Positions 11,097 through 26,428 of a stretch of DNA of 64,000 bases are shown piece by piece. A model generated the notes under the pieces. It saw only the letters and a program-made list of their open reading frames with translations. It was not told the DNA's origin and made no database searches. The number at the start of each line of letters is the position of its first letter. The first letter of the stretch is position 1. The stretch is from Sulfuritalea sp. GTDB lineage: Bacteria; Pseudomonadota; Gammaproteobacteria; Burkholderiales; Rhodocyclaceae. The stretch spans positions 1 through 64,000 of the forward strand of contig JAUXUK010000079.1 of NCBI GenBank assembly GCA_030680805.1, read 5' to 3'. Both the position numbers and the translations under genes were made by a program.

Positions 11097-11246
11097 GAAA
11101 CGCGTTTGGGCAAAGTTGAAGGCGGCTAATTGACTCGCATAGTTGAAGTGTCGCGGAATCGGCTGCAATGGTCAAGAATGATCGTCCGGGCGATTCGATC
11201 CCCCGCTCCTTGCTCTGCCGGGCCAATTGGTGTTGAATGCGAGCCC

Positions 11247-11905: not shown

Positions 11906-12497
11906 TAAGCACAGCTACACGCTGGCCGCGCCGTTCTATGACGCATTCCTGACGGCCGCCACGCGCGGCGCGCGCAAGCGCAGCCTCGCGGCCTTGGGCA
12001 ATGTGCCTCCGCGCGACGTTTTGTTGCTGGGGGTGGGCACCGGCCTTGATCTGCCACATCTGCCAAATCAGCATCGCTACGTCGGACTCGATTTGACGGC
12101 CGCGATGCTCACGCGTGCCCGTCCGCGTGCCGCCGGCCTGCACTTCACCCCCTTGCGCGGCGACGTACAGCGTCTTCCGTTTGGTGATGCCAGCTTCGAT
12201 GTGGCGGTGCTGCATTTGATTCTCGCCGTGGTGCCAGCGCCGACTCTTTGCCTCGCCGAGGCGGTGCGCGTGTTGAAACCCGGCGGGCAGCTGCTGGTCT
12301 TCGACAAGTTCCTGCGGCGTGGCGAGGCCGGCTGGAAGCGCCTGCTGAATCCGCTGACGCGTCATGTCGCGACGCGCCTCGACGTGGTCTTCGAGGACGT
12401 GCTGGAAGCGGTTGGTGGCATCCAGGTGACGGCCAACGATGCGGCGCTTGCCTCGGGCTGGTTTCGCCTGATTCGCCTGGAGAAAGCTACTTCTTGA
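11892..12497 (+). CDS. Class I SAM-dependent methyltransferase, 5' end rewritten by a MITE
   Basis: This 201-residue Rossmann-fold methyltransferase has SAM motif I VLLLGVGTGLDLPHL, an acidic residue after strand 2 (YVGLDLTAAML), and motifs GDVQRLPFGDASFDVAVL and EAVRVLKPGGQLLVFD, in the UbiE/PmtA-like group. The substrate is unknown. The only plausible ATG (11892) lies inside the right terminal repeat of the MITE, so the first four codons (MRQT) are element-derived before the native-looking LKHSYTLAAPFYDAF. The open frame extends further up through the element (to 11802) but that is not conserved sequence. No Shine-Dalgarno site is seen. Either the gene uses the MITE start or it is poorly expressed. 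Confidence 0.8.
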   Translation: MRQTLKHSYTLAAPFYDAFLTAATRGARKRSLAALGNVPPRDVLLLGVGTGLDLPHLPNQHRYVGLDLTAAMLTRARPRAAGLHFTPLRGDVQRLPFGDASFDVAVLHLILAVVPAPTLCLAEAVRVLKPGGQLLVFDKFLRRGEAGWKRLLNPLTRHVATRLDVVFEDVLEAVGGIQVTANDAALASGWFRLIRLEKATS

Positions 12498-13137
12498 GGA
12501 TCAGCGGGATGATGCGCCCGAGCGGTTTGGCCGGATAGGCCCCGGCCAGTTGCCGGTTGCGTTCCTGGACCCGCCACCAGACCCGCAGGCCGAGCAAAAT
12601 GCCGACCAGAAGCGCGTAGACAAGCGGCTTGCTGAGGTCGGCCTTGACCATCCAGGAATAGTGCAGCACGGCCAGCAAGCCGATTGCGTAGACACTGCGG
12701 TGCAGTTCCTGCCAGCGGCGACCACCCAGCTTGCGGATGGCATAGGCATTCGAGGTTACGGCCAGCGGCACCAGCAGCGCAAAGCTGATCATGCCGACGG
12801 TGATGAAGGGGCGCTTCAGGATGTCCCTGGCAATCGCCGGCCAGTCAAAGAACTGATCGAACCAGAGGTAGGTACCGAGATGCAGGACGGCGTAGAAAAA
12901 CACGAACAGTCCCAGCATCCGGCGCAAGCGGCCCAGCCAGGCCCAGCCCGAATATTTGCGTAGCGGCGTCACCGTCAGCGTGATCAGCAGAAAATTCAGC
13001 GCCCACGTGCCCAGGCCACGCGTCACGGTTTCGATGGGATTCGCTCCCAGCGTGTCGGCCTGCACGCCCCAGGCGTAATACGCCAGCGGCGCAAGGCAGG
13101 CGAGAAACAATGGCGGCTTGATCAGGGCAGGGTTCAA
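12487..13137 (-). CDS. msrQ: Heme-binding membrane subunit MsrQ of the MsrPQ system
   Basis: This 216-residue ferric-reductase-like (YedZ) protein has six transmembrane helices and conserved histidines for heme b ([29 protein letters not shown]). It passes quinol or flavin-derived electrons across the inner membrane to periplasmic MsrP. A TTG at 13137, overlapping the msrP stop, gives the family N-terminus ([11 protein letters not shown]) and length, with GAGAAAG upstream. The frame continues upstream inside msrP but that part is a shadow. Its 3' end overlaps the convergent methyltransferase by 11 bp. Confidence 0.9.
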
Positions 13138-14057
13138 AACTGCTTTCTCAAATCCATGCCGGTATAAAGCTGGCCGACCTGCTCGGTATAGCCATTGAAC
13201 ATCAGCGTCTTGCGCTTGGTGAATTCGCCAATGCGTCGCTCGGTTGCCTGGCTCCAGCGGGGGTGATCGACCTCGGGATTGACGTTGGAGTAGAAGCCGT
13301 ATTCGCGGGGCGCGGATTTCATCCAGGAGGTACGCGGCTCGCTGTCGGTGAGGCGAATCCTGACGATCGACTTGCCACTCTTGAAGCCGTATTTCCATGG
13401 CACCACGAGGCGCAGCGGCGCGCCGTTCTGGTTCGGCAGCACGTCGCCATAGAGCCCCATGGCCATGATGGTCAGCGGGTGCATGGCTTCGTCCAGGCGC
13501 AAGCCCTCGGTGTAGGGCCAGTCGAGTACCCGGGTTCTGACGCCGGGCATTGTTTCCGGTTGGACGGCGGTGATGAATTCGACGTACTTGGCACTGCCGA
13601 GTGGCTCGACCTGTTTCAGCAAGGTCGACATCGGAATGCCCAGCCAGGGAATGACCATGCTCCAGCCTTCGACACAGCGCAGGCGGTAGATGCGCTCCTC
13701 CAATGGCGCCAGTTTCAGGACATCTTCGATGTCGAGTGTCTTGGGCTGCCTGACCAGGCCGTCGATGCTCAGCGTCCAGGGTCTTGTGCGCAGGGCCTGC
13801 GCCGTTCGTGCGGGGTCGCCCTTGTCGAAGCCGAATTCGGTGAAGTTGTTGTAGCTGGTCACGTGCTTGAGTGGCGTGAGTTCTTCGCTGGTCGAGTAGG
13901 TGCTCGCCCGGCCGGGACCGAGCGCGCCATGGGCGGCAGGCAGGATGCCTGCCAGCGCGGCGCCGGCCGATAGTCGCAAAAACTCGCGGCGGCGCTCGAA
14001 CAGCATGCGCGGGGTGATTTCGGAGGAGGGGATATCGTCGGGGCGACGGATCAGCAT
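13134..14057 (-). CDS. msrP: Periplasmic protein-methionine-sulfoxide reductase catalytic subunit MsrP
   Basis: This 307-residue sulfite-oxidase-fold molybdoenzyme (YedY) has a Tat signal with twin arginine ([11 protein letters not shown]) after an N-terminal cytoplasmic stub that is typical of the family ([16 protein letters not shown]). The Mo-ligating cysteine lies in [15 protein letters not shown]. It repairs oxidised methionines of periplasmic proteins with electrons from MsrQ. The ATG at 14057 matches the family start. msrQ follows with a 4-bp overlap. The divergent neighbour is the methionine-rich MrpX, its likely substrate, as in the Azospira suillum hypochlorite-response locus. Confidence 0.95.
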
Positions 14058-14530
14058 GGAGACTCTCGATTTCGGGGAAGTGTAACGCTCTGTCGCCCGG
14101 GATCCTTGAAACCTTACGTCACAGGGACCCGCCGCTGATGAGTAGATCATCTTCGGGATTCCCGGTCCTGTGGAATTGATCGCAGTTGGGCAGGCCTGCC
14201 GCGACGTTGCGCCAGATATTCGGGTTGACCAAGCCTGATTCTCGGCCTCATCGATACTGACATAGTGGCATGCTTAAATATTTTTTGAAATCAGTTGGTT
14301 GGCGACTGGAGCGCACTTGAGCCTGCCAAAATGGCAGAGCAATGGCTGTGGCATCGGTTTTGAGGGAATGCTTTTTTTCTTTAACAACAATGGACTATGT
14401 GGAGCTTCTGATATCGGGCATGTAAGGTGCATTAGAGGTGTCTGGTGGACCAACTCCTAGGCGGTCTGCTCAATTTCCGGCCCATTTGTGGCTGCGGGAT
14501 TGCAAATCAACTCTTCGAAGAGGAATGCAT
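14058..14530. other. Divergent regulatory gap between msrP and mrpX
   Basis: This 473-bp stretch has no supported gene. It contains an AT-rich patch (about 14273-14290), a small palindrome, CTGCCA-AAA-TGGCAG (14323-14337), and a T-rich run near 14371-14382. It should hold promoters for both msrPQ and mrpX. In the characterised locus these are driven by an ECF sigma factor (SigF). I could not identify a matching hexamer pair with confidence, and no sigF/nrsF genes are in the window. Confidence 0.4.
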
Positions 14531-15025
14531 ATGAAAATTAAGTCCATCGTTGTTGTCTCCGCTCTTTCCCTGGCTGTCGCTGGTGCTGCTGTTGCTGCTG
14601 AGCAGAAGGGCATGTCCGGCATGGAAGGCCAGAAAGGCATGTCCGGCATGTCCGGTCAAAAAGGCATGAGCGGCATGTCGGGTATGGAAGGCCAGAAGGG
14701 TATGGCCGGCATGTCCGGCATGGAAGGCCAGAAGGGCATGAGCGGTATGTCCGGTCAGAAGGGCATGTCGGGCATGGAAGGCATGTCCGGCATGGAAGGC
14801 AAGAAGAAGAAGGCCAAGCAGGAAGGCATGTCGGGCATGTCCGGCATGGAAGGCCAGAAGGGTATGTCGGGCATGTCCGGCATGGAAGGTCAGAAGGGTA
14901 TGTCGGGCATGTCCGGTCAGAAGGGCATGAGCGGAATGTCCGGCATGGAAGGCCAGAAGGGTATGTCTGGCATGTCCGGCCAGAAGGGCATGAGCGGCAT
15001 GTCCGGCATGGAAGGCAAGAAGTAA
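14531..15025 (+). CDS. mrpX: Methionine-rich periplasmic scavenger peptide, MrpX-like
   Basis: This 164-residue precursor has a signal peptide (residues 1-23, ending AGAAVAA). The mature 141 residues are almost wholly triplet repeats MSG, MEG and QKG: 32 methionines (about 23%), no cysteine, and a single Lys-rich interruption (KKKKAKQEG) in the middle. In Azospira suillum, MrpX of this type is oxidised by hypochlorite and regenerated by the YedY/YedZ (MsrPQ) pair; here msrPQ is the divergent neighbour, which strongly supports the assignment. The ATG at 14531 is preferred because AGAGG lies 7 nt upstream; an ATG two codons earlier is too close. It ends at a terminator (15071-15117). The repeat DNA is prone to copy-number change. 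Confidence 0.88.
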   Translation: MKIKSIVVVSALSLAVAGAAVAAEQKGMSGMEGQKGMSGMSGQKGMSGMSGMEGQKGMAGMSGMEGQKGMSGMSGQKGMSGMEGMSGMEGKKKKAKQEGMSGMSGMEGQKGMSGMSGMEGQKGMSGMSGQKGMSGMSGMEGQKGMSGMSGQKGMSGMSGMEGKK

Positions 15026-15057: not shown

Positions 15058-15070
15058 AGGACAGTAGTTC

Positions 15071-15117
15071 GGCGCGGATGGAGGGCTCTTCTCCTCCCCC
15101 TCATCCGCGCCTCTTTT
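15071..15117 (+). terminator. Rho-independent terminator of mrpX
   Basis: The 10-bp stem GGCGCGGATG (15071-15080) pairs with CATCCGCGCC (15102-15111), with a further partly paired loop region, and is followed by TCTTTTTT. It separates mrpX from the downstream molybdoenzyme operon, although the next gene starts only 18 bp later. Confidence 0.85.
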
Positions 15118-15134
15118 TTCACAAGAGGCACCCA

Positions 15135-15476
15135 ATGACTTGCATGTTTCCAAGGGCCGCAGCGAGCGTCGTGCTGATCCTCGCCCTGCCCGGCATCGCC
15201 CCGGCGGCGGAGCCATCCGGCGCGAGTTTTGTTGCAGGCCTGGCTCCCCATCAGCGACCGCAGGGCGCACCGACAGTCCGCGAGTTCGCGCCCGATCCCG
15301 ACTGGCGGGAACGGGCGTTGACGGGCATCGCCGCACCGGTGCCGCCGAGCCTGGGTTTCCTCAATAACCAAGGCACCTGGTATACGCCCTTCAATCATCC
15401 CGGCATGCCGGGCCATTATGATCTCCGGCAGTGGCACGGCGGCGCAGCTCGCGCCACCGCCAACGCCGCCCGATAA
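15135..15476 (+). CDS. Small exported protein of unknown function, first gene of molybdoenzyme operon
   Basis: The product has 113 residues. An N-terminal signal peptide (about 1-24, cleavage near APAAE) precedes a proline/glycine-rich mature part with no cysteine or heme motif. The segment LGFLNNQGTWYTPFNHPGMPGHYDLRQWH looks structured and is the best candidate for conservation. The ATG at 15135 has AGAGG upstream. Only 4 bp separate it from the pentaheme cytochrome gene, so it is probably part of that electron-transfer system. I do not recognise the family. Confidence 0.65.
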   Translation: MTCMFPRAAASVVLILALPGIAPAAEPSGASFVAGLAPHQRPQGAPTVREFAPDPDWRERALTGIAAPVPPSLGFLNNQGTWYTPFNHPGMPGHYDLRQWHGGAARATANAAR

Positions 15477-15480
15477 CGTC

Positions 15481-16350
15481 ATGGAAAATTCAGTCAAATG
15501 GATCCTCGTCGCTCTGGTCGTCGCGGCGTCGATATGGGGTATCGGAGCGGGCAGGGAAATCCGCCAGGCTGCCGAACGCGAGCGCGTTGCGGACCAGGGC
15601 GGGCAGCTGTTGCGCGCCACCTACAGCCCGCTTCATTTCAATCCGGCCATCGATTCGGCAACCGACCAGCAATGCCTTGCGTGCCACAAGGAGGTGCTGG
15701 AAGAGAAGCCGCGAGTCGCCTCCCCCGCCGGGGTCAGGGCTGCCGACAGCGTCGCCTGGTACCAGCGCACCAGTACTTACAATGGTGAGCAGGACAGTTT
15801 CCATCGCCGGCACCTTGTCACGCCGATGGCAAAGAACTTGATGAACTTGCGCTGCAATACCTGCCATCAGGGGCACGATCCACGCGAAGAGGCGCAAGGC
15901 GCCTCGGCAACCTCCGCATCTCAGACTGATACCGGATTCACCTTGCGCAAGCAGGTCAATCCGGAGACGATCTGCCTCAAGTGCCATGGCCAGATGCCGG
16001 CCAAGGAGATCATGGGCTTGCCCGGCCCATGGCCTGAGGTCAAGGACATGTTCCAGAATGACTGCCTCGGCTGCCATGCCGCTTTTCGCACCAAGCGACA
16101 CCAGGTCAACTACCTCAATGCCGACGCGATCGAAGATGCAGCGAAAGCCGGGCAGGCGACCAAGACCGGTGCAGAGGCTTGTTACGGTTGCCACGGCGGT
16201 CGTCCCTGGTATCGCATTGCCTACCCTTATGCGCGCAATCCCTGGCCCGGCATGCCGGAAGGCACACCCGAATGGGCACGACTGCGCCCGCAGCATTCGG
16301 AACTGCGTTACCTGACGCAGCCCGTCAAATCCACAGCGGCGGAACACTGA
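15481..16350 (+). CDS. Membrane-anchored pentaheme c-type cytochrome
   Basis: The 289-residue protein has one N-terminal hydrophobic helix (residues 6-23), likely an uncleaved anchor, then a periplasmic part with five CXXCH sites: CLACH (65), CNTCH (125), CLKCH (165), CLGCH (195) and CYGCH (234). Additional histidines (RRHLVTP, GHDPREE, KRHQVN) could be distal ligands. The catalytic gene starts 2 bp later. No DmsC/NrfD-type quinol-oxidising membrane protein is in the operon, so this cytochrome is the likely electron link between the quinone or cytochrome pool and the molybdoenzyme. It is not a standard NapC/NirT tetraheme protein. The direction of electron flow is unknown. Confidence 0.85.
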   Translation: MENSVKWILVALVVAASIWGIGAGREIRQAAERERVADQGGQLLRATYSPLHFNPAIDSATDQQCLACHKEVLEEKPRVASPAGVRAADSVAWYQRTSTYNGEQDSFHRRHLVTPMAKNLMNLRCNTCHQGHDPREEAQGASATSASQTDTGFTLRKQVNPETICLKCHGQMPAKEIMGLPGPWPEVKDMFQNDCLGCHAAFRTKRHQVNYLNADAIEDAAKAGQATKTGAEACYGCHGGRPWYRIAYPYARNPWPGMPEGTPEWARLRPQHSELRYLTQPVKSTAAEH

Positions 16351-16352
16351 AC

Positions 16353-18929
16353 ATGAAATCGACAACCGAGAGGATGCGCGACATCCTGAATCCAGGCCGC
16401 CGCAGCTTCATCAAGACGACGGCGGCCGGCGCCGCCCTGTCGGCGGCCGGCGGCCTGATCGAGATGGCGACGCAGAAGAAGGAGGCCCAGGCTTTCGCTT
16501 ACGCGCCGCACTACACCGACGACCAGCTCACCACGGTGGTGACCAGTTGCGACCACAACTGCGGTTCGCGCCACATGCTGGTGGCACACAAGAAGGGCGA
16601 CGTCATCGTCCGCCTGTCGACGGACGACGGGCGCTACCAGGAAAACGGCGCCTTCGGCAAGGACACGTTCGAGGAACCGCAACTCAGGGCCTGCCTGCGC
16701 GGCCGCTCCTACCGCTCGCGACTGTATTCGCCCGAGCGACTGCTCTACCCGATGATGCGCGTCGGCGAGCGCGGCGAGGGCAAGTTCAAGCGCGTTACCT
16801 GGGACCAGGCACTCGATCACATTGCGAAGAAGATGATCGAGCTGAAGGCAAAATACGGCCCGACGGCGATCCTCGACCAGGCGTATGCCGGCAGTTCCTA
16901 TGGCGTGCTGCACAAGTCGGACCAGATCGAGGGCTTGCTGGCGCGCTTCCTCGGCATGTTTGGCTGCCGCACCAACTCGTGGTCGGTACCGAGCTATCAG
17001 GGCACGACTTTCAGTTCGCGCATCACCTTCGGCACCATCGAGGACGGCAACGAAGACGATGCCTTTGCCGACACCAAGCTGATGATCATGTGGGGCTGGA
17101 ATCCGGCCTACACCTTCCACGGCGGCAACACCTTCTACTACATGCGACTGGCCAAGCAGCGCGGCTGCAAGTTCGTCGTTGTCGATCCGCAATACACCGA
17201 CTCGGCGGCGGCCTACGATGCATGGTGGATTCCGATCCGGCCCAATACCGATGCGGCGATGCTGGCCGGCATGGCCCACTACATTTTCGCCAACAATCTG
17301 CAGGACCAGAAGTTCATCGACAAGTTCGTGCAGGGCATGGACGCGGGCACCATGCCCGACTGGGCCAAGGGTCAGGAGAACTTCAAGGACTACATTCTGG
17401 GCACGTCGGATGGCGTGCCCAAGACACCCGAGTGGGCCGAGAAAATATGCGGCGTGCCCGCGGCGGATATCGTCAAGCTGGCCGACATGTATGCCCGCAC
17501 CAAGCCCGCGGCGCTCAAGGCTTCCTGGGCGCCGGGCCGCAATGCCTACGGTGAGCAGTACAACCGCATGGCCGCGGCGGTGCAGGCGATGACCGGCAAC
17601 ATCGGCATCCTCGGCGGCTGTGCCGAAGGTGTCGGCAAGGGTTGGCACGCCGAGAGTGCGGCCTATCCCTACGACGAGAACGCCAACCTCTGGTGGGCTT
17701 CGATCAAGTCCGACCGCTGGGCGCACTGCGTGCTGAACTATCCCAACGTCAAGCGCGAGGAAATCGGCTGCTGGCCGCGCGACGACGCGCTCGACGGCAA
17801 GATTCCCAACATCAAGGCGATCTTCTGGCACGGTTCGGACTGGTTCAACCAGCTCACCAACATCAACAAGGAAATCGAGGCGATCAAGAAACTGGAACTG
17901 GTGGTCTGCTCGGACTCGACCATCACGCCGTCCGGTTTGTGGGCCGATGTGTTGCTGCCCATCGCCACCCACTTCGAGCGGCACGACGTGGCGCTGCCCT
18001 GGTACAAGGGCCATTACTACATTCACCGGCCGACGGTCATCGAGCCGATGGGCGAATCGAAGACCGACCTGCAGGTCTATACCGAACTGGCCTATCGCCT
18101 CGAAGCGCTCGATCCTTCGCTGAAGAACCTCGGCAAGCGCTACAACCCGCGTGCCGACCGCAGCTATTTCGACAATCCGGATGCGGTGGACGAAGCCTAT
18201 CTTGTGGCCTGGTGGAAGAAGGTTCAGGACCACCAGCACGTCGTCATGGGCTGGGAGGAGTTCAAGCGCCGGGGTGTCTACAAGTTCAAGTTCGACAAAC
18301 CACTGGTGGCCTTCCGCGCTCAGGTCGAGGAAGGTGAACCCTTCGAGACGCCGTCGGGGAAGATCGAAATCTTCTCGACCACGCTGGCGCAGGTCAAGGA
18401 CTGGACCAGGACGCAGTATGGCTACCCGATCCCGGCCATCCCGAAATGGGTGGAGCCCTTCGAATGGCTTGGCGACACGAAGAAAGTGAAGGACCACCCG
18501 TTCCACTTGATTACGCCGCACCCGCGCCACCGGACGCACTCGATTTTCCACAACATTCCGTGGTTGCGGGAGACCTACCAGCAGGAAGTGACCCTCAACG
18601 CGTCGGATGCAGCGAAGCTCGGCATCGTCACCGGTGACATCGTCGAAGTCTGGAATGACCGCGGTACCGTCGTCGTTCCGGCCTATGTCACCGAGCGCTG
18701 CATGCCGGGCGTCGCGGTGATTTTTGAAGGTTCGTGGATGGATCTCGACAAAAAGGGTATCGATCGGTCCGGCAACCCGGACTTCCTGACCAAGGATGAG
18801 CCGAGTCCCGCTGGCGCCTTCGCTTACAACACCATACTGGCGAACATCCGCAAGTCGGCCCTGGAACATCGTCCCGGATGGGACAGCCAGGCCACGGCGC
18901 GGTCCTACATTTTCCGGCGCGACGCCTGA
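16353..18929 (+). CDS. DMSO-reductase-family molybdopterin oxidoreductase, catalytic subunit
   Basis: This 858-residue protein has a Tat signal (GRRSFIKTTAAG). The Fe-S site near the N-terminus reads C66-x3-C70-x3-H74-x39-C114: the third position, Cys in DmsA, is His. Next come LRACLRGRSYRSRLYSPERLLYPM, typical of the DmsA branch, and the molybdopterin domains. Around residues 208-216 (NSWSVPSYQG) a serine occupies the region of the DmsA Mo ligand. A dinucleotide-binding domain forms the C-terminus (HPFHLITPHPRHRTHSIFHN). It is predicted periplasmic, pairing with the ferredoxin subunit encoded next. The substrate is not determinable: S-oxide, N-oxide, sulfur or another oxyanion remain possible. 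Chaperone, FeS subunit, pentaheme cytochrome and sensor pair are co-encoded. Confidence 0.9.
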   Translation: MKSTTERMRDILNPGRRSFIKTTAAGAALSAAGGLIEMATQKKEAQAFAYAPHYTDDQLTTVVTSCDHNCGSRHMLVAHKKGDVIVRLSTDDGRYQENGAFGKDTFEEPQLRACLRGRSYRSRLYSPERLLYPMMRVGERGEGKFKRVTWDQALDHIAKKMIELKAKYGPTAILDQAYAGSSYGVLHKSDQIEGLLARFLGMFGCRTNSWSVPSYQGTTFSSRITFGTIEDGNEDDAFADTKLMIMWGWNPAYTFHGGNTFYYMRLAKQRGCKFVVVDPQYTDSAAAYDAWWIPIRPNTDAAMLAGMAHYIFANNLQDQKFIDKFVQGMDAGTMPDWAKGQENFKDYILGTSDGVPKTPEWAEKICGVPAADIVKLADMYARTKPAALKASWAPGRNAYGEQYNRMAAAVQAMTGNIGILGGCAEGVGKGWHAESAAYPYDENANLWWASIKSDRWAHCVLNYPNVKREEIGCWPRDDALDGKIPNIKAIFWHGSDWFNQLTNINKEIEAIKKLELVVCSDSTITPSGLWADVLLPIATHFERHDVALPWYKGHYYIHRPTVIEPMGESKTDLQVYTELAYRLEALDPSLKNLGKRYNPRADRSYFDNPDAVDEAYLVAWWKKVQDHQHVVMGWEEFKRRGVYKFKFDKPLVAFRAQVEEGEPFETPSGKIEIFSTTLAQVKDWTRTQYGYPIPAIPKWVEPFEWLGDTKKVKDHPFHLITPHPRHRTHSIFHNIPWLRETYQQEVTLNASDAAKLGIVTGDIVEVWNDRGTVVVPAYVTERCMPGVAVIFEGSWMDLDKKGIDRSGNPDFLTKDEPSPAGAFAYNTILANIRKSALEHRPGWDSQATARSYIFRRDA

Positions 18930-18939
18930 GGGCCCGATC

Positions 18940-19605
18940 ATGACGAAAAAACTCGACATGAAGCAGGTCAAAGTCGCCCTCGAACGCAAGGTGGCGCAGA
19001 CCTACGAGCCGGTCAAGCCGGCCAAGCAGCTCGGCTTCATTCACCACAACGTCGATTGCATCGGCTGCCGCGCCTGCGAAATCGCCTGCAAGGACAAGAA
19101 TGGACTACCGCCAGGCCCGCGCTTCCGCCGCGTGATGTACGTCGAGGGCGGCCATTACCCGGACGTATTCGCGTACAAGGTGAACATGTCCTGCAACCAC
19201 TGCGCCGAACCTGCCTGCCTGCCGACCTGCCCCACCGGGGCGATCTGGAAGCGCGAAGCCGACGGCATCGTGGATATCGACTCGACCTTGTGCATCGGTT
19301 GCCGCCGCTGCGAGGCGGCCTGTCCCTACGGCGCGCCGCAGTGGAACCCGAAGGAGCAAATCGTCCAGAAGTGCAACATGTGTGTCGACGAGATCGAGGC
19401 CGGGCGCAAGCCCTACTGCGTGATGGCCTGCATGATGCGCGTGCTCGACATCGGTCCCATCGAGGCGCTCTGGAACGCCAGCCACAAGACCACCGCCATC
19501 GGCCCGCACGACAAGCCGGTGCGCCAAGTGAAGAACATGGCGAATCCCGAACTCACCCGACCGTCGATCGCCTTCGTGCCGCACAGCAAGGGCAAGGTCG
19601 AATGA
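18940..19605 (+). CDS. DmsB-like four-cluster ferredoxin subunit
   Basis: The 221-residue protein contains four cysteine clusters for [4Fe-4S]: CIGCRACEIACK, CNHCAEPACLPTCP, CIGCRRCEAACP and a last one CNMC...C-x3-C with a long insert. That is the DmsB/PsrB/NrfC electron-wire pattern. There is no own signal sequence, so it should be exported with the Tat-carrying catalytic subunit. The ATG at 18940 is 11 bp after the catalytic stop. The third cysteine of cluster 4 is retained, so all four sites look intact. Its stop overlaps the chaperone start (ATGA). Confidence 0.92.
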   Translation: MTKKLDMKQVKVALERKVAQTYEPVKPAKQLGFIHHNVDCIGCRACEIACKDKNGLPPGPRFRRVMYVEGGHYPDVFAYKVNMSCNHCAEPACLPTCPTGAIWKREADGIVDIDSTLCIGCRRCEAACPYGAPQWNPKEQIVQKCNMCVDEIEAGRKPYCVMACMMRVLDIGPIEALWNASHKTTAIGPHDKPVRQVKNMANPELTRPSIAFVPHSKGKVE

Positions 19606-20357
19606 CGCCGAACGCCATGATGGCCGAGCTGGCTGCGGCCCTCGCCGAAGATGCCGCGACACTCGCCCTGCTGCACGACAGCGAACTGACGCCGTCCGTC
19701 CTGGCCGAACTGAAGGAGGTGGATTTTCCGACGAACCTCGGCCTGTTCCCGGCAGGCGAGGCAAGTCTGGGCAGTTTCGAAATGATGCGAGGCGCAGTGG
19801 CGTCCCTGCCGGAGATCCCGGATGCCGCGCTGGTCGACGAACTGGCGGCTGATTTCGCAGCAATCTACCTGACCGGTTCATTTGGCGCGTCGCCCTGCGA
19901 ATCGTACTGGCTGTCCGACGACCACCTGGTCTGCCAGGACGCGATGTTCGATTTGCGCAAGCTCTACGCCGAACATGGGTTAGCCGTTCCCGACTGGCGC
20001 AAGCGGCCGGACGATCACCTGGTGTTCCAGCTTCAGTTCCTCGCTGGCAGGCTGAATGCGGCCGCAAGCAGGGACGACTGGCGTTCGATCGCCGGATTTC
20101 TCGATTTCCACCTGCTGCGCTGGCTGCCCGATTTCGCCGGGCGCGTTGCCGATCGCTGCAACATGATGTTCTACGCCGCCCTCGCCCTGTTGACCGAAGC
20201 CTGGCTGCAGCAACTGCGCGACCTGATTGACGACCATTTGGGCGAACCGCGTTTGAGCCGGGAGGAGATCGAGGCCAGCCTCGGCTCGCAACGCGAGGCC
20301 GAACCGGTGGCGGTGCCCATCGCATTCATGCCGGGCGCCGCCGGCCCGAGCTGGTAG
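19602..20357 (+). CDS. TorD/DmsD-family molybdoenzyme maturation chaperone
   Basis: This 251-residue, mostly helical protein carries the TorD signature region (FAAIYLTGSFGASPCESYWLSDD) and a later LPDFAGRV segment. Such chaperones bind the Tat signal of a specific molybdoenzyme and hold export until the cofactor is inserted. It is cytoplasmic. The ATG at 19602 overlaps the ferredoxin stop. Encoded directly after the catalytic and FeS subunits, it most likely serves this enzyme. Confidence 0.88.
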   Translation: MTPNAMMAELAAALAEDAATLALLHDSELTPSVLAELKEVDFPTNLGLFPAGEASLGSFEMMRGAVASLPEIPDAALVDELAADFAAIYLTGSFGASPCESYWLSDDHLVCQDAMFDLRKLYAEHGLAVPDWRKRPDDHLVFQLQFLAGRLNAAASRDDWRSIAGFLDFHLLRWLPDFAGRVADRCNMMFYAALALLTEAWLQQLRDLIDDHLGEPRLSREEIEASLGSQREAEPVAVPIAFMPGAAGPSW

Positions 20358-20439
20358 CCGCCCGGCGGGAGGCACCCAGCAGCCCGGGTGACAGCGCCGC
20401 GGCAAAGCCAATCGCATTTGCTTGCAGTATCCTCGCACC

Positions 20440-22308
20440 ATGACCACTCGTGTTGCCCATCTGAGCCACCGTCTGTTGCGGGGTGTCCTGCTGGCCGCCG
20501 GAGGGGCGTCGCTGCTGCTGGGCGTCGTGTTTCTGGGCCTGTACCGGCAGCAACTCGAAAATGAACGCGCCGAAGCTTCGCTGCACTTGAACCGCATGTT
20601 GCAGGTGACTTGGGAAAACGCCATGCTAAAACGCGACGTCGAAGGCCTGCGCGACATCGTCAGCAATCTCGGCACGCTGCCCGGGATACGCGATGTACTG
20701 ATCCTGGCGCCATCCGGAGAGGTGCGCTTCGCCTCCGATGCGGCCAAGCTGGGGCGCCAGATGGCCGATGTCGCGCAAGCCACCACGGTCGGCAAGCCGC
20801 TGAGCCGCTTCGAGAATCTGGACGCGGGCGGCGAGGTGCTGCGCTCCATCAACCCGGTGCCGAATCGTGCTCCCTGCATGCCCTGTCACGGCGCCGTCGA
20901 GAAGCATCCGGTGAATGGCGTCCTGGTGATCGATTACGATGCGGCGCCGATTCGCGACAGTGCCCGTCGCAGCGCCGCCCTGTTCCTGCTGGCCGGCAGC
21001 GCCGTGCTCGGCCTCACGCTGGCCACCCTGTGGCTGGCCTTGCGGCGCCACGTGATTCGTCCATTGGCGGACCTGGATGCGGCCGCCCGTGCCCTGGCGA
21101 CCAATGACTTGTCGGTGCGCGCCGTGGTCACCCGCGACGACGAGATCGGCCGCGCCGCCGACAGCTTCAATCGCATGGCGGGGCGCCTCGAAGCGCAAAT
21201 GGCTCTGGTGCGCGCCCATGAAGCCTGGTTGCAGGAAATCCTCGATGGCTTGCCGGACGGCGTGCGCGTCATCCGGGTCGCCGACAAGAAGGTGGTGCTG
21301 GCCAATCGTGCCTTCTGCCAGCAGACCGAACGGCCGCTGGAGGAGATCCTCGACCACTCCTGCCACAGCAGCAGCCATGCTCGCGCGGAACCCTGTACGG
21401 CTACCCTGGTGATCTGCCCGCTGGTCGAGTTGCGCGAAGTCGGCGCTACCCTCAAGGCCAGCCACCACCACCAGCGCGCGGGCGGTGGCCAGTTCCCGGC
21501 TGAAGTCAACGCCGTCCTGGTCGAGATCGACGGGGAGGGCGGCGCAGAGCGCTACATCGTCGAATCGGTGCGCGACCTCGGCCAGGCGGTGCTGGTTTCG
21601 CACGAGCAGCGCCTGTCAGAACTCGGCCTGCTCGCGGCCGGCATCGCCCACGAGATCCACAACCCATTGGGCTCGGTGCGCCTCGGCGTCCAGGGCCTCG
21701 CGCGGGAAATCCGGGAAGCGCGCATTACGCCGGAGCAGATCGCGGAATACATGGGCCTCATCGACCAGGAGATCGACAATTGCATCGCCGTCACGCGTCG
21801 CCTGCTGCTGCTGGCGCGGCCGCCCAGCAACAGCCTGCAACTGGTGGTGCTCGGCGAGGCGCTGGGGGACACGTTGAAATTGCTTGAGTTCGACGCGCAG
21901 GGCCGGAACATCCGGCAGCGGATCGAGGTCGATGCGGCCCAGTCGAGGGTGCTGGCCGACGAGGCCGAGATCCGCATGATCTTCCTCAACCTGATACAGA
22001 ACGCGCACCACGCGATGCCGGAGGGTGGCACGCTGACGGCCCGGGTCAGCGAGGCCGAAGGGCAGGCGCTGATCGAGATCGCCGATACCGGAATCGGCAT
22101 GGACGCGGAATACGTGGCCAGGATTTTCGATCCCTTCTTCAGTCGGCGTGCCGACGGAGTCGCCGGGACCGGCCTCGGCCTGACCATCGTCAAGAACTTC
22201 GTCGAACGCATGGCAGGTGAAATCCGGGTCGAAAGCGCACCCGGCCGCGGCACGCGTTTCCTGATCCGCCTGCCGCTGGCCGAAAGCGCATGGGAGAAAG
22301 TTTCGTGA
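20440..22308 (+). CDS. Sensor histidine kinase with extracytoplasmic c-type heme site
   Basis: The 622-residue protein has two transmembrane helices (about 14-36 and 178-200) enclosing a sensor domain that ends with CMPCH (146-150), a c-heme attachment motif. A HAMP domain, a PAS domain (about 265-385) and a HisKA/HATPase core follow (phospho-acceptor H404 in GIAHEIHNPLGSV; N-box NLIQNAHHAMP; GTGLGLTI). The PAS contains C308-x4-H and C319-x6-C326-P, a cysteine/histidine pattern shared by PAS domains of several anaerobic kinases. It should sense periplasmic redox state or a heme ligand and control the adjacent sigma54 regulator. The ATG at 20440 is used; an upstream TTG is less likely. It starts 82 bp after the chaperone gene. 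Confidence 0.9.
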   Translation: MTTRVAHLSHRLLRGVLLAAGGASLLLGVVFLGLYRQQLENERAEASLHLNRMLQVTWENAMLKRDVEGLRDIVSNLGTLPGIRDVLILAPSGEVRFASDAAKLGRQMADVAQATTVGKPLSRFENLDAGGEVLRSINPVPNRAPCMPCHGAVEKHPVNGVLVIDYDAAPIRDSARRSAALFLLAGSAVLGLTLATLWLALRRHVIRPLADLDAAARALATNDLSVRAVVTRDDEIGRAADSFNRMAGRLEAQMALVRAHEAWLQEILDGLPDGVRVIRVADKKVVLANRAFCQQTERPLEEILDHSCHSSSHARAEPCTATLVICPLVELREVGATLKASHHHQRAGGGQFPAEVNAVLVEIDGEGGAERYIVESVRDLGQAVLVSHEQRLSELGLLAAGIAHEIHNPLGSVRLGVQGLAREIREARITPEQIAEYMGLIDQEIDNCIAVTRRLLLLARPPSNSLQLVVLGEALGDTLKLLEFDAQGRNIRQRIEVDAAQSRVLADEAEIRMIFLNLIQNAHHAMPEGGTLTARVSEAEGQALIEIADTGIGMDAEYVARIFDPFFSRRADGVAGTGLGLTIVKNFVERMAGEIRVESAPGRGTRFLIRLPLAESAWEKVS

Positions 22309-23636
22309 AGAAAAAAACGCTGCTCATCGTCGACGACGATGCCGTGTTCAACGGCCTCCTGCGGCGCCAGATCGAATCGATGGGTTTTGCCAGTGTCGGC
22401 GCCGGCACCTGGGCCGAGGCCCTGCAGAAGCTCGGTGAGATCGAACCCGACGCCATCATTCTCGATTTCAGGCTGCCCGACAGCGATGCGACGAAGATCC
22501 TCGCCGAAATCCGCAACCAGTACCCGGTGATCGTGCTCACCGGCTATGGATCGATTCCCAATGCGGTGAACGCGATTCGCCAGGGCGCGGCCGACTTCCT
22601 GACCAAGCCGGTGAATGTCGACGAACTGGAAATGACGGTTCGCCATGTGCTGGAAACCGCCGAGCTGAGAGAGTCGAACCAGTTCTACCGCACCCAGCTG
22701 GCGGCACATCGCCCCGGGCCGATGGTTTTCGACAGTCCGGCCATGCGCGAAGTGCAGGCCATGGTCGACGCGGTCGGGCCGACCGAGACCACGGTGCTGA
22801 TCCTTGGCGAATCGGGCACCGGCAAGGAACTCGTGGCGCAGGCAATACATGACAGAAGTCCACGGGCGCACCGGGAACTGGTCGCCATCGACGGCAGCGG
22901 TCTGCAGGAAAGCCTGTTCGAGTCCGAGCTGTTCGGCCACGAGCGCGGCGCCTTCACCGGTGCCGACCGGCAGAAGAAGGGCCTGATCGAAGAGGCGGCG
23001 GGCAGTACCCTGTTCCTCGACGAGATCGGCGACATCGGCGCCGCGATCCAGGCCAAGCTGCTGCGCGTGATGGAGACCAGCACCTTTCGTCGTCTCGGCG
23101 GCAACAAGACCCTGACCGCCGACGCGCGCTTTGTCGCGGCGACCAACCGTGACATCGAGGCCATGGGCCGCAGCGGCAGCTTTCGCAGCGACCTGTATTT
23201 CCGTCTCTCGCGTTTTGTCATCAATGTGCCGCCACTGCGCACCCGCCGTGAGGATATCGAGCCGCTGGCAAGGCATTTCCTCAACCTGCTGACCCGTACC
23301 GCGCCGATGACGCTGACGGCGGACGGCCTCAAGCTGTTGGTCGCCTACGACTGGCCCGGCAACGTGCGCGAACTGCGCAACGCGATCGAACGCGCCATCA
23401 TCCTGGCCCGGCCCGGCACCCAGGTGCGAGCAGAGCATCTTGCGTTCATCCCGCGCGCCCAGGCCGGGGAAACCGTGCTGCGCTTCGGCGAGGAACCGAC
23501 CCTGGAGCACATCGAGCGGGAGTACCTGCGACAGGTCATGTCCCGACATGGCGGCAACCGTCAGAAGACCGCCGCGGTGCTGGGTATCAGCGAGCGACAC
23601 ATCTACCGTCTGCTCGACAAGTATCGCCAGGCGTGA
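22305..23636 (+). CDS. Sigma54-dependent response regulator (NtrC family)
   Basis: The 443-residue product has a receiver domain with phospho-acceptor D54 (IILDFRLPD), an AAA+ sigma54-interaction domain (Walker A GESGTGKE, the GAFTGA loop intact, Walker B LFLDEIGD) and a C-terminal FIS-type helix-turn-helix (QKTAAVLGISERHIYRLLDKY). The GTG at 22305 overlaps the kinase stop (GTGA), with GGGAGAAAG upstream; an ATG at 22290 would place 5 extra residues. It forms a two-component pair with the heme-c kinase. Its likely target is a sigma54 promoter ahead of the molybdoenzyme operon or an unlinked gene; I did not find a clear -24/-12 element before 15135. Confidence 0.93.
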   Translation: MKKKTLLIVDDDAVFNGLLRRQIESMGFASVGAGTWAEALQKLGEIEPDAIILDFRLPDSDATKILAEIRNQYPVIVLTGYGSIPNAVNAIRQGAADFLTKPVNVDELEMTVRHVLETAELRESNQFYRTQLAAHRPGPMVFDSPAMREVQAMVDAVGPTETTVLILGESGTGKELVAQAIHDRSPRAHRELVAIDGSGLQESLFESELFGHERGAFTGADRQKKGLIEEAAGSTLFLDEIGDIGAAIQAKLLRVMETSTFRRLGGNKTLTADARFVAATNRDIEAMGRSGSFRSDLYFRLSRFVINVPPLRTRREDIEPLARHFLNLLTRTAPMTLTADGLKLLVAYDWPGNVRELRNAIERAIILARPGTQVRAEHLAFIPRAQAGETVLRFGEEPTLEHIEREYLRQVMSRHGGNRQKTAAVLGISERHIYRLLDKYRQA

Positions 23637-24215: not shown

Positions 24216-25118
24216 TCAGCGCCTGAGTGCTCTCAGTAGTCCTTCAATCATGCGTTGCGCCTGACCCAGATAGGCACCGCCGAACAGGTTGAAGTGATTC
24301 AGGATGTGGTACAGGTTGTAGAGCGGCTTGCGCGCTTCGTAGCCTGAATCGAGCGGCCACGCCGCGCGATAGGCGACATGGAAGCTGGCGGGAAAGCCGC
24401 CGAACAATTCAGCCATGGCGATGTCGGTTTCGCGGTCGCCGTAGTAGCAGGCCGGATCGAAGAGCACTGCGGTGCCATCGCTGCATTGCGCCGTGTTGCC
24501 CGACCACAGATCACCGTGCAGCAGGCTCGGCACCGGCTGGTAGTCGATGAACATGCCGCCGACGCGTTCGATGATTGCGTCGCCTTTTGCCACCAAGGCC
24601 TTGTCCATGCCGTTTTTCAGCGCGAGCTGGAACTGCGGTCGCAGCCGACGCTCGCCGAAGAAATGCGGCCAGCTCGGATGAGGCGCATTGTTCTGCGGTG
24701 TGGCGCCGATGAAGTTGTCTTCGCTCCAGCCGAAGAGGTCTCCGGTAGCGCGGTGCAGCTGCGCCAGCGCGGTACCGAGCCGGGCTCCAGCCTGTGGATC
24801 GAGGGGTGCCAGATCGAGGAACTCGAGCACCAGAAAGGCCTGGGTTTCCGTGCTTCCCTGCACGATGACCGCAGGCGTTCGCACGGCGCCCGTCGCCGCC
24901 AGTGCGTGCAGCCCCCGGGCTTCCGCGGCAAACATCGGCGCCGTCCGGCAAGCGCCGACTTTTGCAAAATAGGGGCGCAGGCCGTCGGCAATGCGCCAGG
25001 CACGATGAATCGAGCCGCCGCCGACGGGGCTGATGGATGTGGGGGTGAAAGGGGTTTTGCTGTGCTCGGCTATCGCCGCTGCAATGACGTCAAACCCCGA
25101 GCCGGTCTCCGGTGTCAA
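24216..25118 (-). CDS. Fructosamine kinase/ketosamine-3-kinase family protein
   Basis: The 300-residue APH-like small-molecule kinase has SISPVGGGSIHRAWRI as nucleotide loop, FAKV for the lysine, LHGDLWSGNT as catalytic loop and FDPACYYGDRETDIAM as metal-binding DP motif. The family phosphorylates protein-bound fructosamines or ribulosamines as a deglycation step; bacterial members are cytosolic. The start is a TTG at 25118 overlapping the stop of the upstream Ser/Thr kinase. No ATG exists near the family N-terminus, and the longer open frame is a shadow of that kinase gene. Coupling to a protein kinase is unusual and may be incidental. Confidence 0.87.
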   Translation of the reverse strand: MTPETGSGFDVIAAAIAEHSKTPFTPTSISPVGGGSIHRAWRIADGLRPYFAKVGACRTAPMFAAEARGLHALAATGAVRTPAVIVQGSTETQAFLVLEFLDLAPLDPQAGARLGTALAQLHRATGDLFGWSEDNFIGATPQNNAPHPSWPHFFGERRLRPQFQLALKNGMDKALVAKGDAIIERVGGMFIDYQPVPSLLHGDLWSGNTAQCSDGTAVLFDPACYYGDRETDIAMAELFGGFPASFHVAYRAAWPLDSGYEARKPLYNLYHILNHFNLFGGAYLGQAQRMIEGLLRALRR

Positions 25119-26428
25119 AGCGATGCCAGGCGGGCATTGGCATCGGCCAGGCGACCGGCGATGACGTCGAGAAAGCCCTGGTAGAAGTGCATCCGGCACA
25201 CCTCGGAGGCGTGCTGCAGCGCTTGCGCGGAAATGGTGACGACGCGGGTGCCGGTCTGCGCGACGACGTCGGCGCCGCGGGTGTGTTCGCCACGCCGGAT
25301 GATGGCCATTTCGCCGAAACATTCGCCGGCAGCCAGCGTACCCAGGGAATGCCCGCTCTTCGAAACCATCAGTTCGCCGTCGAGCAGAAAGGCGAAGAAA
25401 TCGCCCCGCTCGCCGTCCCGCATGATTACCGTGCCGGCGGCCACTTCGTCCCAGCGCGAGAAGCGGACAACTTCCCAGAGATCGACATCGGAGAACTCGT
25501 TGAAGAAACGCAGCGCCCGCAACGCCTCGAATTTCTCGCTGTCGGGAAATGCCTGGCGCTGCGCCGAAAGTTGCTTGTTGCGGAAGGATTGGGCCAGATC
25601 ATGGGAGAACTCTTCCCAGCTGTGGTAGCGCGCGTCGACTTCCTTCTGCATGGCGCGGCCGACCACGGCATCGAGACTGACCGGCATGTCGGAGCGAAAG
25701 GTCGAGGGTGGCGGCGGATCGGTATTGCAGATCTGATAGATCATGCCGTAGTTGGAGGTCGACTGGAACGGCAGCCGTCCGGTCAGCAACTGGTACATCA
25801 CGACGCCCAGCGAATAGATGTCCGTCTGGTGATCGAGCGTCATGTCGCGTACCTGCTGCGGCGACATGTAGGCCGGCGAACCGACGCCCGAGACCTGCGT
25901 GCGCGTCTGCTCCCCGCTGGTCATCATCGCCGCGCCGAAGTCGGAGATCTTGATGTCGCCGCTGCTGCGTTCGGCGCTTTCGCCTGCGTTGACCAGCAGG
26001 ATGTTGGCCGGTTTGATGTCGCGATGGGTGATGCCGGCGCGAAAGGCGTAGTCGAGTGCGCGGGTGCACTTGAAAATCATCTCGACGAGCCGGTCCACCG
26101 GCAGCAGAGTGCTCGGGCTGCAAAAGGGTTCCAGCGTGCCGCCCTTGACGTATTCCATGACGATGTAGCTTTGTTCCTCGTCGAGCACGGCGTCGAAAAT
26201 CTGCACGATGTGCGGATGCATGAGTTTCCCGGCCAGGGAAGCTTCGGTCATCAGCAGATTTCGATACAGCTTGCCGCGTTCCTTGTCGCGCAGCACTTCG
26301 GGGAAAATGGCCTTGACGGCCACTTCGCGTTCGGCGAAAGGATCGAAGCCAAGGTAAACGATGGAAGTGGCACCCTCGCCGAGCTTGCTGCGGATCTCGT
26401 ATTTGCCTATGCGCTCGGGAATGACCAT
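25115..26428 (-). CDS. Ser/Thr protein kinase with C-terminal cyclic-nucleotide-binding domain
   Basis: This 437-residue cytoplasmic protein has a Hanks-type kinase domain (about 9-270): glycine loop LGEGATSIV, K39, HRDIKPANILL (D137), DFG (163-165), and GVGSPAYMSPQQV as activation/P+1 segment. A cNMP-binding domain (about 300-430) ends the protein, with a phosphate-binding cassette FGEMAIIRRGEHTRGADVV. There is no transmembrane segment or PASTA repeat. The fusion predicts a kinase regulated by cAMP or cGMP in cis, like a single-chain PKA analogue. It lies 10 bp downstream of argH and is coupled to the fructosamine-kinase-like gene. Confidence 0.92.
   Translation of the reverse strand: MVIPERIGKYEIRSKLGEGATSIVYLGFDPFAEREVAVKAIFPEVLRDKERGKLYRNLLMTEASLAGKLMHPHIVQIFDAVLDEEQSYIVMEYVKGGTLEPFCSPSTLLPVDRLVEMIFKCTRALDYAFRAGITHRDIKPANILLVNAGESAERSSGDIKISDFGAAMMTSGEQTRTQVSGVGSPAYMSPQQVRDMTLDHQTDIYSLGVVMYQLLTGRLPFQSTSNYGMIYQICNTDPPPPSTFRSDMPVSLDAVVGRAMQKEVDARYHSWEEFSHDLAQSFRNKQLSAQRQAFPDSEKFEALRALRFFNEFSDVDLWEVVRFSRWDEVAAGTVIMRDGERGDFFAFLLDGELMVSKSGHSLGTLAAGECFGEMAIIRRGEHTRGADVVAQTGTRVVTISAQALQHASEVCRMHFYQGFLDVIAGRLADANARLASL

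Follow-up and report, generated by a model that had tools for sequence, protein, structure and literature searches.

A conserved proteobacterial operon joins a DmsA-like molybdoenzyme, a pentaheme cytochrome and a methionine-rich exported protein: a possible system for reducing methionine sulfoxide in the periplasm

We analyzed a 64,000-nucleotide stretch of contig JAUXUK010000079.1 from Sulfuritalea sp. (assembly GCA_030680805.1); we refer to this whole stretch as the window, and coordinates are positions in it. The window contains an operon for a molybdoenzyme related to dimethyl sulfoxide (DMSO) reductases, with seven genes, all on the + strand, within 8.5 kb. The junctions are short or overlapping: exp1 and cyt5 are separated by 4 nt, cyt5 and cat by 2 nt, cat and fdx by 10 nt, and torD and the histidine kinase (HK) gene by 82 nt; fdx and torD overlap in the ATGA at 19602–19605, and the HK and response regulator (RR) genes overlap by 19 nt (improved starts are at 19602 for torD and 20440 for HK). 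All seven open reading frames (ORFs) described in an initial annotation of this DNA were found on the + strand, with coordinates that agree with those given there exactly or to within a few codons, and domain matches bore out the identities it assigned (cytochrome, DmsA-like and DmsB-like subunits, TorD-like chaperone, CMPCH-containing kinase and sigma54 regulator). However, that annotation starts the operon too late, leaving out a gene that encodes a methionine-rich (Met-rich) exported protein (14525–15025); it also overlooked the divergent msrPQ genes (12487–14150) and a sigma54-like site (14332–14347). The features are as follows.

14332–14347, + strand: sigma54-type (−24/−12) promoter-like site TGGCAGAGCAATGGCT, with two mismatches to the scored consensus
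14525–15025, + strand: ORF for the Met-rich exported repeat protein, (GMSGM)n, 166 residues, with a Sec-like signal peptide by eye
15070–15120, + strand: terminator-like hairpin and T run, between the Met-rich gene and exp1
15135–15476, + strand: exp1, small exported protein (34-row alignment)
15481–16350, + strand: cyt5, pentaheme c-type cytochrome with an N-terminal hydrophobic segment (Pfam and CxxCH motifs)
16353–18929, + strand: cat, catalytic molybdopterin subunit, DmsA/YnfE-like, with a Tat-like (twin-arginine translocation) leader and the FS0 motif CDHNCGSRH
18940–19605, + strand: fdx, DmsB-like four-cluster ferredoxin subunit (TIGR02951, 193.1 bits)
19602–20357, + strand: torD, TorD/NarJ-type maturation chaperone (PF02613, 67.6 bits)
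20440–22308, + strand: sensor HK with CMPCH in its putative extracytoplasmic part and HAMP, PAS, HisKA and HATPase domains
22290–23636, + strand: NtrC-type sigma54-dependent RR (PF00158, 204 bits; PF00072; HTH_8)
13134–14150, − strand: msrP, periplasmic protein-methionine-sulfoxide reductase (NF003767, 468.9 bits, cut-off 207)
12487–13398, − strand: msrQ, heme-binding partner of msrP (NF003831, 197.6 bits, cut-off 130)

The Met-rich protein contains 34 Met in its 166 residues, with GMSGM and GMEGQK repeats and a start that, by eye, resembles a signal peptide; its sole Pfam match is collagen-like. We surveyed 93 non-identical loci: the window itself, the best 80 of 121 relatives, 11 loci found in samples of whole genomes and one on a plasmid (no identical copies by script, although near-identical strains may remain). 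L021, L025 and L029 were excluded, since they repeat the genomes of L034 and L045 or contain half a gene. Of the 57 loci whose flank reaches 3.5 kb or more, 47 have a GM-rich gene on the + strand at most 4.2 kb upstream of cat; scanning the surveyed loci (1.54 Mb) on both strands revealed no other GM-rich stretch. Measured between the first GM and the stop, the 51 complete copies contain a median of 41 Met (range, 8–108) and are ~25% Met and ~35% Gly; in 43 of them the Met-rich stretch is free of His. Among loci that show both genes, 33 have exp1 ahead of the Met-rich gene; in 13, one of which is the window, exp1 comes after it.

As a control for this association, the window's Met-rich protein was compared (e-value ≤ 1e-5) with the same 399 genomes of the order in which cat was sought (e-value ≤ 1e-120) and found in 10; 56 genomes matched, mostly through low complexity, and the 30 best of the 56 matched loci were read (the other 26 genomes, all reductase-free, were left unread). 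A GM-dense Met-rich gene is present in eight of the 10 reductase-bearing genomes versus one of the 22 reductase-free genomes read; this lone match is a short repeat within a 605-residue ORF, presumably resembling the Met-rich insert of multicopper oxidases. Unlinked Met-rich lipoproteins are encoded by four genomes whose operons are without a linked gene; they share a housekeeping-like neighborhood and, therefore, are not counted as support. These small lipoprotein-like proteins, with GMxGM repeats following an Ala/Pro-rich linker, are located at L203 6029–6394, L204 5812–6087, L205 5598–5954 and L206 822–1079.

The arrangement is not fortuitous, as the order cyt5–cat–fdx–torD recurs across the survey: in loci with enough flank, cyt5 is found in 88 of 88, fdx in 85 of 87 and torD in 80 of 85, so the gene-neighborhood check suggested by the initial annotation shows the cytochrome and chaperone genes to be conserved beside cat; exp1 is linked to cat in 48 of 57. 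HK and RR matches are nearby in 34 of 47 loci, a count that includes L034, with two weak matches on different strands (33 are convincing); the pair is downstream in most loci and upstream and divergent in 11. The mixture that the initial annotation had pointed out, of Dms-like parts (A and B subunits) and Tor-like parts (cytochrome and TorD) with a heme-c kinase and a sigma54 regulator, is a conserved gene set. The torD product scores 78.6 bits against PRK04976 TorD, under the cut-off of 132. The exp1 product has a conserved C-terminal part (P-G-M-x-G-P-Y-D-I/L-R-x-W-H), with 12 invariant columns in the 34-row alignment, and matches no Pfam or NCBIfam family above cut-off; its AlphaFold2 model is mostly irregular with no clear fold (predicted local distance difference test, pLDDT, 73.3; predicted template modeling score, pTM, 0.44).

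A nine-gene version of the operon is contiguous, with generic annotations, on the closed plasmid pEJ01 of Rhodobacter xanthinilyticus (NZ_CP017782.1, L111); in it, a 244-residue 'hypothetical protein' is a nearly pure GMSGMGG repeat. The plasmid is 264 kb and typed as conjugative; carriage of the complete operon on such a plasmid may allow horizontal transfer of the entire system in one piece. A second, paralogous operon with a Met-rich protein upstream is found at L106 and L107, in genomes that also carry the main one; its flanks (−3.4 to +4 kb of cat) contain no TorD, kinase or regulator match. At L106, by eye, a CRP/FNR-like regulator gene lies in between, and the downstream cytochrome c and the Met-rich protein share an F-R-V-T-P-x-G motif. 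A gene at L060 6451–7293 (281 residues), with similar genes in 12 loci, is located between the kinase/regulator genes and exp1; it encodes a signal-like segment, and in several of the 12 loci there are sigma54-like sites near the start. Neither this 281-residue gene nor a 169-residue gene at L073 has a Pfam family above cut-off.

The closest curated family for cat is TIGR02166 (DmsA/YnfE), with 607.2 bits, under the cut-off of 777.7 (relatives in five genomes score 601–626 bits). The scores are further below the cut-offs for the YnfE/YnfF selenate/tellurate reductase models NF041885 and NF041884 (468 of 1675 and 420.9 of 1650 bits), the type II family model TIGR03479 (226.4 bits, cut-off 984.75) and the ethylbenzene dehydrogenase model (115.9 bits of 2000). 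The leader, RRSFIK, is Tat-like by eye, and cat is ~35% identical to the dmsA copies in Escherichia coli records. Within the clade, identity is 71–93%; the next relative in the searched samples has 41%. By record title the relatives span Beta-, Gamma- and Alphaproteobacteria, and carriers include Dechloromonas, Sulfuritalea, Candidatus (Ca.) Thiodiazotropha, Sedimenticola, Hyphomicrobium and Rhodobacter. Of 398 genomes of the phylum, five (including the window's own) have a member with at least 76% identity; the next match has 41% and the rest at most 38%, and the lone 41% relative has an ordinary CGHNCGGRC motif, with no further operon gene matched in the surrounding 18 kb. The plasmid collection contains one family record (R. 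xanthinilyticus, 74%); the other 1028 matching records are <60% identical, the best outside the family being 36% among the matches listed. The 36 matched phage records are all <60% identical, and three among the matches listed are ordinary DmsA.

In a 47-row tree the cat family is one clade on a long stem (Shimodaira–Hasegawa-like approximate likelihood ratio test, SH-aLRT, 100), separate from the E. coli DmsA, YnfE, YnfF, TorA and BisC sequences that were included; rows oth_L124 (a wrong ORF of 567 residues, not the enzyme) and BisC (partial) are unused. The close clustering with a known enzyme for which the initial annotation had proposed a check was, therefore, not found for these five. This quick tree places the clade beside TorA/BisC (SH-aLRT 85) but with a warning that long branches meet, and we therefore claim just one clade on a long stem.

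All 93 cat copies have the motif C[AD]HNCGSRH in the region of the FS0 iron–sulfur cluster, that is, the third Cys of DmsA is replaced with His; E. coli DmsA, YnfE and YnfF have C-x3-C-x3-C. The fourth FS0 Cys (RACLRGRS) is retained in the aligned cat rows. Judged from the motif, the FS0 cluster of the family would be either His-ligated at the third position or altered; in NarG the His is the first cluster ligand, not the third. This His-for-Cys change deserves spectroscopic attention. Ser is conserved in the aligned cat rows at the position of the DmsA Ser that we take to be a Mo ligand. The AlphaFold2 model of cat (32-row family-only alignment) has a pLDDT of 54.8, a quality that allows neither a fold search nor an assessment of the active-site funnel.

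The Pfam matches of cyt5 are to Cytochrome_C7, MtrC/MtrF-like, Paired_CXXCH and c3 types. The window's cyt5 has no NapC/NirT match and, therefore, is not TorC; the initial annotation had compared it with the standard pentaheme cytochrome of Tor operons, a likeness that we abandon. Five CxxCH motifs are found in 79 of 92 cyt5 homologues, six in 11 and four in two. The sixth motif is N-terminal, and nine of the 11 proteins that have it are titled alphaproteobacterial; in the one tested (R. xanthinilyticus), this region is a class I cytochrome c by Pfam. An N-terminal heme of this type hints at cytochrome c, instead of direct contact with quinol, as the electron-exchange partner. The fdx score against TIGR02951 (193.1 bits) is under the cut-off of 214.1, and a further ferredoxin gene (330–360 residues) follows torD in 44 of 73 loci, although not in the window. 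In the two operons inspected, the window's and the one annotated in R. xanthinilyticus, there is no DmsC/YnfH anchor; no DmsC model was applied to the other loci.

The CMPCH motif of the kinase is placed, by eye, between two hydrophobic segments, and CxxCH is found in 45 of 48 kinase matches of related loci, the three exceptions being weak or unlinked matches. In 32 of 56 loci, the 400 bp ahead of the first gene include a sigma54-type site that scores at least as high as the window's site; the expectation from the remainder of the same loci is 0.012 sites per 390-bp interval. The window's site, TGGCAGAGCAATGGCT, lies between the divergent msrP and the Met-rich gene; together with the NtrC-type regulator encoded by the operon, its position fits control of this promoter by that regulator and would tie the Met-rich gene to it. 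No excess emerged when the window was scanned for sigma70 sites and terminators. The hairpin at 15070–15120 has an 11-bp stem with at most one mismatch and a 21-nt loop, followed by a T run; a scan limited to loops of 3–8 does not list it. Counting the window, 18 of 72 loci have a terminator-like hairpin after the Met-rich gene; the control at +2600 gave 0 of 71 but is mostly coding stretch and hence no fair null. Such a hairpin may provide extra Met-rich transcript.

In the window, msrPQ, a known periplasmic pair that reduces protein-bound methionine sulfoxide (MetO), is divergent from the Met-rich gene; the listed msrQ ORF extends too far at the 5′ end, and its NF003831 match begins at residue 93. 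On the two sides of the operon are genes on the − strand for a protein with a guanylate/adenylate cyclase domain (9789–11168) and a Ser/Thr-type protein kinase with a cyclic-nucleotide-binding domain (25115–26428). Elsewhere in the same genome (G000:C27:30373-31821, L007), the ORF of a molybdopterin oxidoreductase was reported to contain a single internal TGA that might specify selenocysteine, by analogy with formate dehydrogenases; a sigma54-regulator-like match adjoins this ORF.

The operon shares parts with several known systems (the papers that we cite by PMC number are cited from excerpts). With DmsABC/YnfEFGH it shares homologous A and B subunits, the Tat-like leader and a TorD/DmsD-type chaperone; it differs in that the pentaheme cytochrome replaces the DmsC/YnfH anchor, the FS0 motif is C-x3-C-x3-H, a Met-rich partner and a dedicated heme-c kinase and sigma54 regulator are present, and the scores are under the TIGR02166 and TIGR02951 cut-offs. 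In the Tor/Dor systems (TorA-TorC-TorD, DorA), too, a DMSO-family reductase is accompanied by a cytochrome c, a TorD-like chaperone and a dedicated two-component system; here, however, there is a ferredoxin partner (85/87 loci), the cytochrome has no NapC/NirT match, the regulator is of the NtrC type, and cat has an FS0-type motif that is not in TorA. Both groups offer a precedent for action on MetO: MetO is reduced by E. coli DmsABC, and hypochlorous acid (HOCl) induces dmsA (PMC12096835); Rhodobacter sphaeroides DorA reduces free and protein-bound MetO with about equal efficiency, and its rate on QWGAGM(O)QAEED is ~3 times that on TTPGYM(O)EEWNK (PMC7402097).

The MrpX and BcrX Met-rich peptides, with YedYZ/MsrPQ-type reductases, have been described as forming a methionine cycle against hypochlorite (PMC4623255, PMC8315932); the repeat here is GMSGM rather than the MXKDX of BcrX (PMC8315932). 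As in those systems, an exported Met-rich protein (export here by eye) is encoded beside a molybdenum-dependent MetO reductase (a putative one here) with dedicated regulation, and in the window alone msrPQ itself is the divergent neighbor. The conserved reductase here, however, is not MsrP but a DMSO-family enzyme with a cytochrome and a ferredoxin, and an HK and a sigma54 regulator are found rather than an extracytoplasmic function (ECF) sigma factor (an ECF sigma gene was not searched for). Perchlorate islands contain chlorite dismutase and a type II reductase. Neither is present here (chlorite dismutase in 0/10 genomes), but the islands (pcrABCD, pcrPSR, mrpX, yedYZ) also join a DMSO-family reductase, a multiheme cytochrome, a kinase/regulator pair and a Met-rich peptide (PMC4623255). 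In the literature searched (mainly titles and the starts of abstracts, with few subscription journals), we found no DMSO-family reductase with such a Met-rich protein and a pentaheme cytochrome. The initial annotation called the system undescribed; in that literature this applies to the operon as a unit, but the enzyme itself has probably been noticed already in lucinid symbionts (see below). We rate the enzyme family and the scavenger principle as known, and the conserved combination, the changed iron–sulfur motif and the dedicated regulation as new.

The gene order and its conservation, the Met-rich partner, the sigma54-like site, the heme motifs and the lack of a DmsC-type anchor in the operon are read directly from the sequence; which substrate is used, which way electrons run, whether quinol or cytochrome c donates them and what the kinase senses are inferences. 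The initial annotation regarded the substrate as unknown; the Met-rich exported gene beside the reductase points to MetO or oxidant chemistry, so it would not be wholly so. We tentatively propose, as a reading that we hold to be a little short of probable, that the operon encodes a periplasmic reductase of protein-bound MetO that recharges a Met-rich shield. Oxidants (hypohalous acids, peroxides) would oxidize the exported (GMSGM)n protein to MetO in the periplasm, and the Tat-exported DmsA-like subunit would reduce the protein-bound MetO back to methionine, using electrons that would reach it through the pentaheme cytochrome and the DmsB-like ferredoxin. The heme-c kinase and sigma54 regulator would sense the redox state or the oxidant and activate the genes, with the −24/−12 promoter ahead of the Met-rich and exp1 genes as the site of activation.

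Several observations weigh against this proposal. The linked Met-rich gene is lacking in 10 of the 57 well-flanked loci; in the window the hairpin splits it from exp1, so their co-transcription is not assured. The msrP gene is beside cat in only one of 93 loci (the window), and MsrP is just mildly commoner in the reductase-bearing genomes (9/10 versus 227/399 overall). The Gly-Met repeats could bind Cu(I) instead. Finally, class I-type cytochromes c have potentials of ~+250 mV and MetO reduction occurs at ~+160 to +225 mV, so that the sixth N-terminal heme motif in 11 of 92 cytochromes implies a potential that is not ideal for MetO reduction.

Other functions can be accommodated to different extents. 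The enzyme may serve respiration by reducing a small acceptor, either DMSO or a different S- or N-oxide, with the Met-rich protein merely protecting the periplasm during high-level enzyme production; DmsA/YnfE is the closest curated family (607 bits), Ser is retained at the Mo-ligand position, and a possible role with DMSO has been proposed for the lucinid-symbiont enzyme (PMC6872982). We judge this unlikely, although worth serious attention, in that cat and fdx are under the DmsA and DmsB cut-offs, the operon has no DmsC, the FS0 His is found in 93 of 93 copies and, taken alone, a small acceptor leaves the place of the Met-rich gene in the gene set unexplained. Reduction of a strongly oxidizing anion (chlorate, bromate, iodate or selenate), with the Met-rich protein scavenging released reactive halogen species as MrpX does, seems to us quite unlikely. 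PcrA and ClrA are members of the type II DMSO-reductase family, and cat is far from that model (226.4 bits versus a cut-off of 984.75); also, chlorite dismutase (PF06778) is found in 0 of 10 reductase-bearing genomes. A cytochrome-c-linked electron path, however, would suit high-potential acceptors, and perchlorate islands join a DMSO-family reductase, a multiheme cytochrome, pcrSR, yedYZ and mrpX (PMC4623255).

The electrons could also flow in the opposite direction, from a reduced sulfur compound (a thioether or other) to cytochrome c, as in dimethylsulfide dehydrogenase. The sixth N-terminal heme motif in 11 of 92 cytochromes (class I in the one tested) and the window's lack of a quinol-side membrane subunit in its operon would suit such an oxidase or dehydrogenase, and several hosts, judged by their names, are sulfur oxidizers; but the matches to the ethylbenzene dehydrogenase (115.9/2000 bits) and type II (226.4/984.75 bits) models are poor and, to our knowledge, the DmsA/TorA relatives of known function are reductases, so we consider this direction very unlikely. 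Alternatively, the Met-rich protein might be a Cu(I)/Ag(I) buffer in a metal-stress system, with the molybdoenzyme in an accessory redox role. Met-rich repeats occur in copper proteins, and the one GM-dense match in a reductase-free genome sits in the 605-residue ORF with its multicopper-oxidase-insert-like repeat; nevertheless, 43 of 51 Met-rich stretches are free of His (although Met alone may bind Cu(I)), and to this possibility we assign still less weight than to a dehydrogenase. A variant of the proposed MetO cycle, which we also find very unlikely, is that the Met-rich protein is a protein-based electron sink, in which oxidants charge its many Met (median, 41 per complete copy) with oxygen atoms under oxic conditions and a dedicated reductase chain respires the sulfoxides when the environment is anoxic; if so, it would be a rechargeable redox capacitor at oxic–anoxic interfaces, with a genetically encoded polymer as the terminal acceptor.

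The proposal that the operon reduces protein-bound MetO bears on an enzyme of lucinid-clam symbionts. A highly expressed 'DMSO reductase' is described in Ca. Thiodiazotropha endoloripes (PMC6872982, PMC8090883); its authors suggested that it possibly acts on DMSO in anaerobic respiration (PMC6872982), and its substrate, although the enzyme is among the most highly expressed genes, was called unverified under remaining questions (PMC8090883). The excerpts of these two papers do not mention a Met-rich protein. The symbiont also expresses an aa3 oxidase. Both dmsB and dmsD have a high median TPM (transcripts per million) and are core genes of Ca. Thiodiazotropha clades, including Ca. T. endolucinida (PMC12172469), and genes annotated dmsAB are near a divergent soxY in lucinid symbionts (PMC11237559). 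Genomes named Ca. T. endoloripes and Ca. T. endolucinida contain exactly one TIGR02166 match of >600 bits, which is in the cat family; the next DmsA-type match has ~217 bits. As the sole strong DmsA-type match belongs to the cat family, the published symbiont enzyme is likely its orthologue, a candidate by match count rather than by locus tag. Upstream in the T. endoloripes locus is a 345-residue ORF with 94 Met.

If the proposed function is correct, the symbiont 'DMSO reductase', whose substrate was called unverified (PMC8090883), would have a concrete substrate. The system would join the Met-rich scavenger peptides (MrpX, BcrX) with the action of DorA and DmsABC on MetO, and a DMSO-family enzyme found in three classes of Proteobacteria, now labeled by homology as an anaerobic DMSO reductase, would be the recharging half of an antioxidant system.

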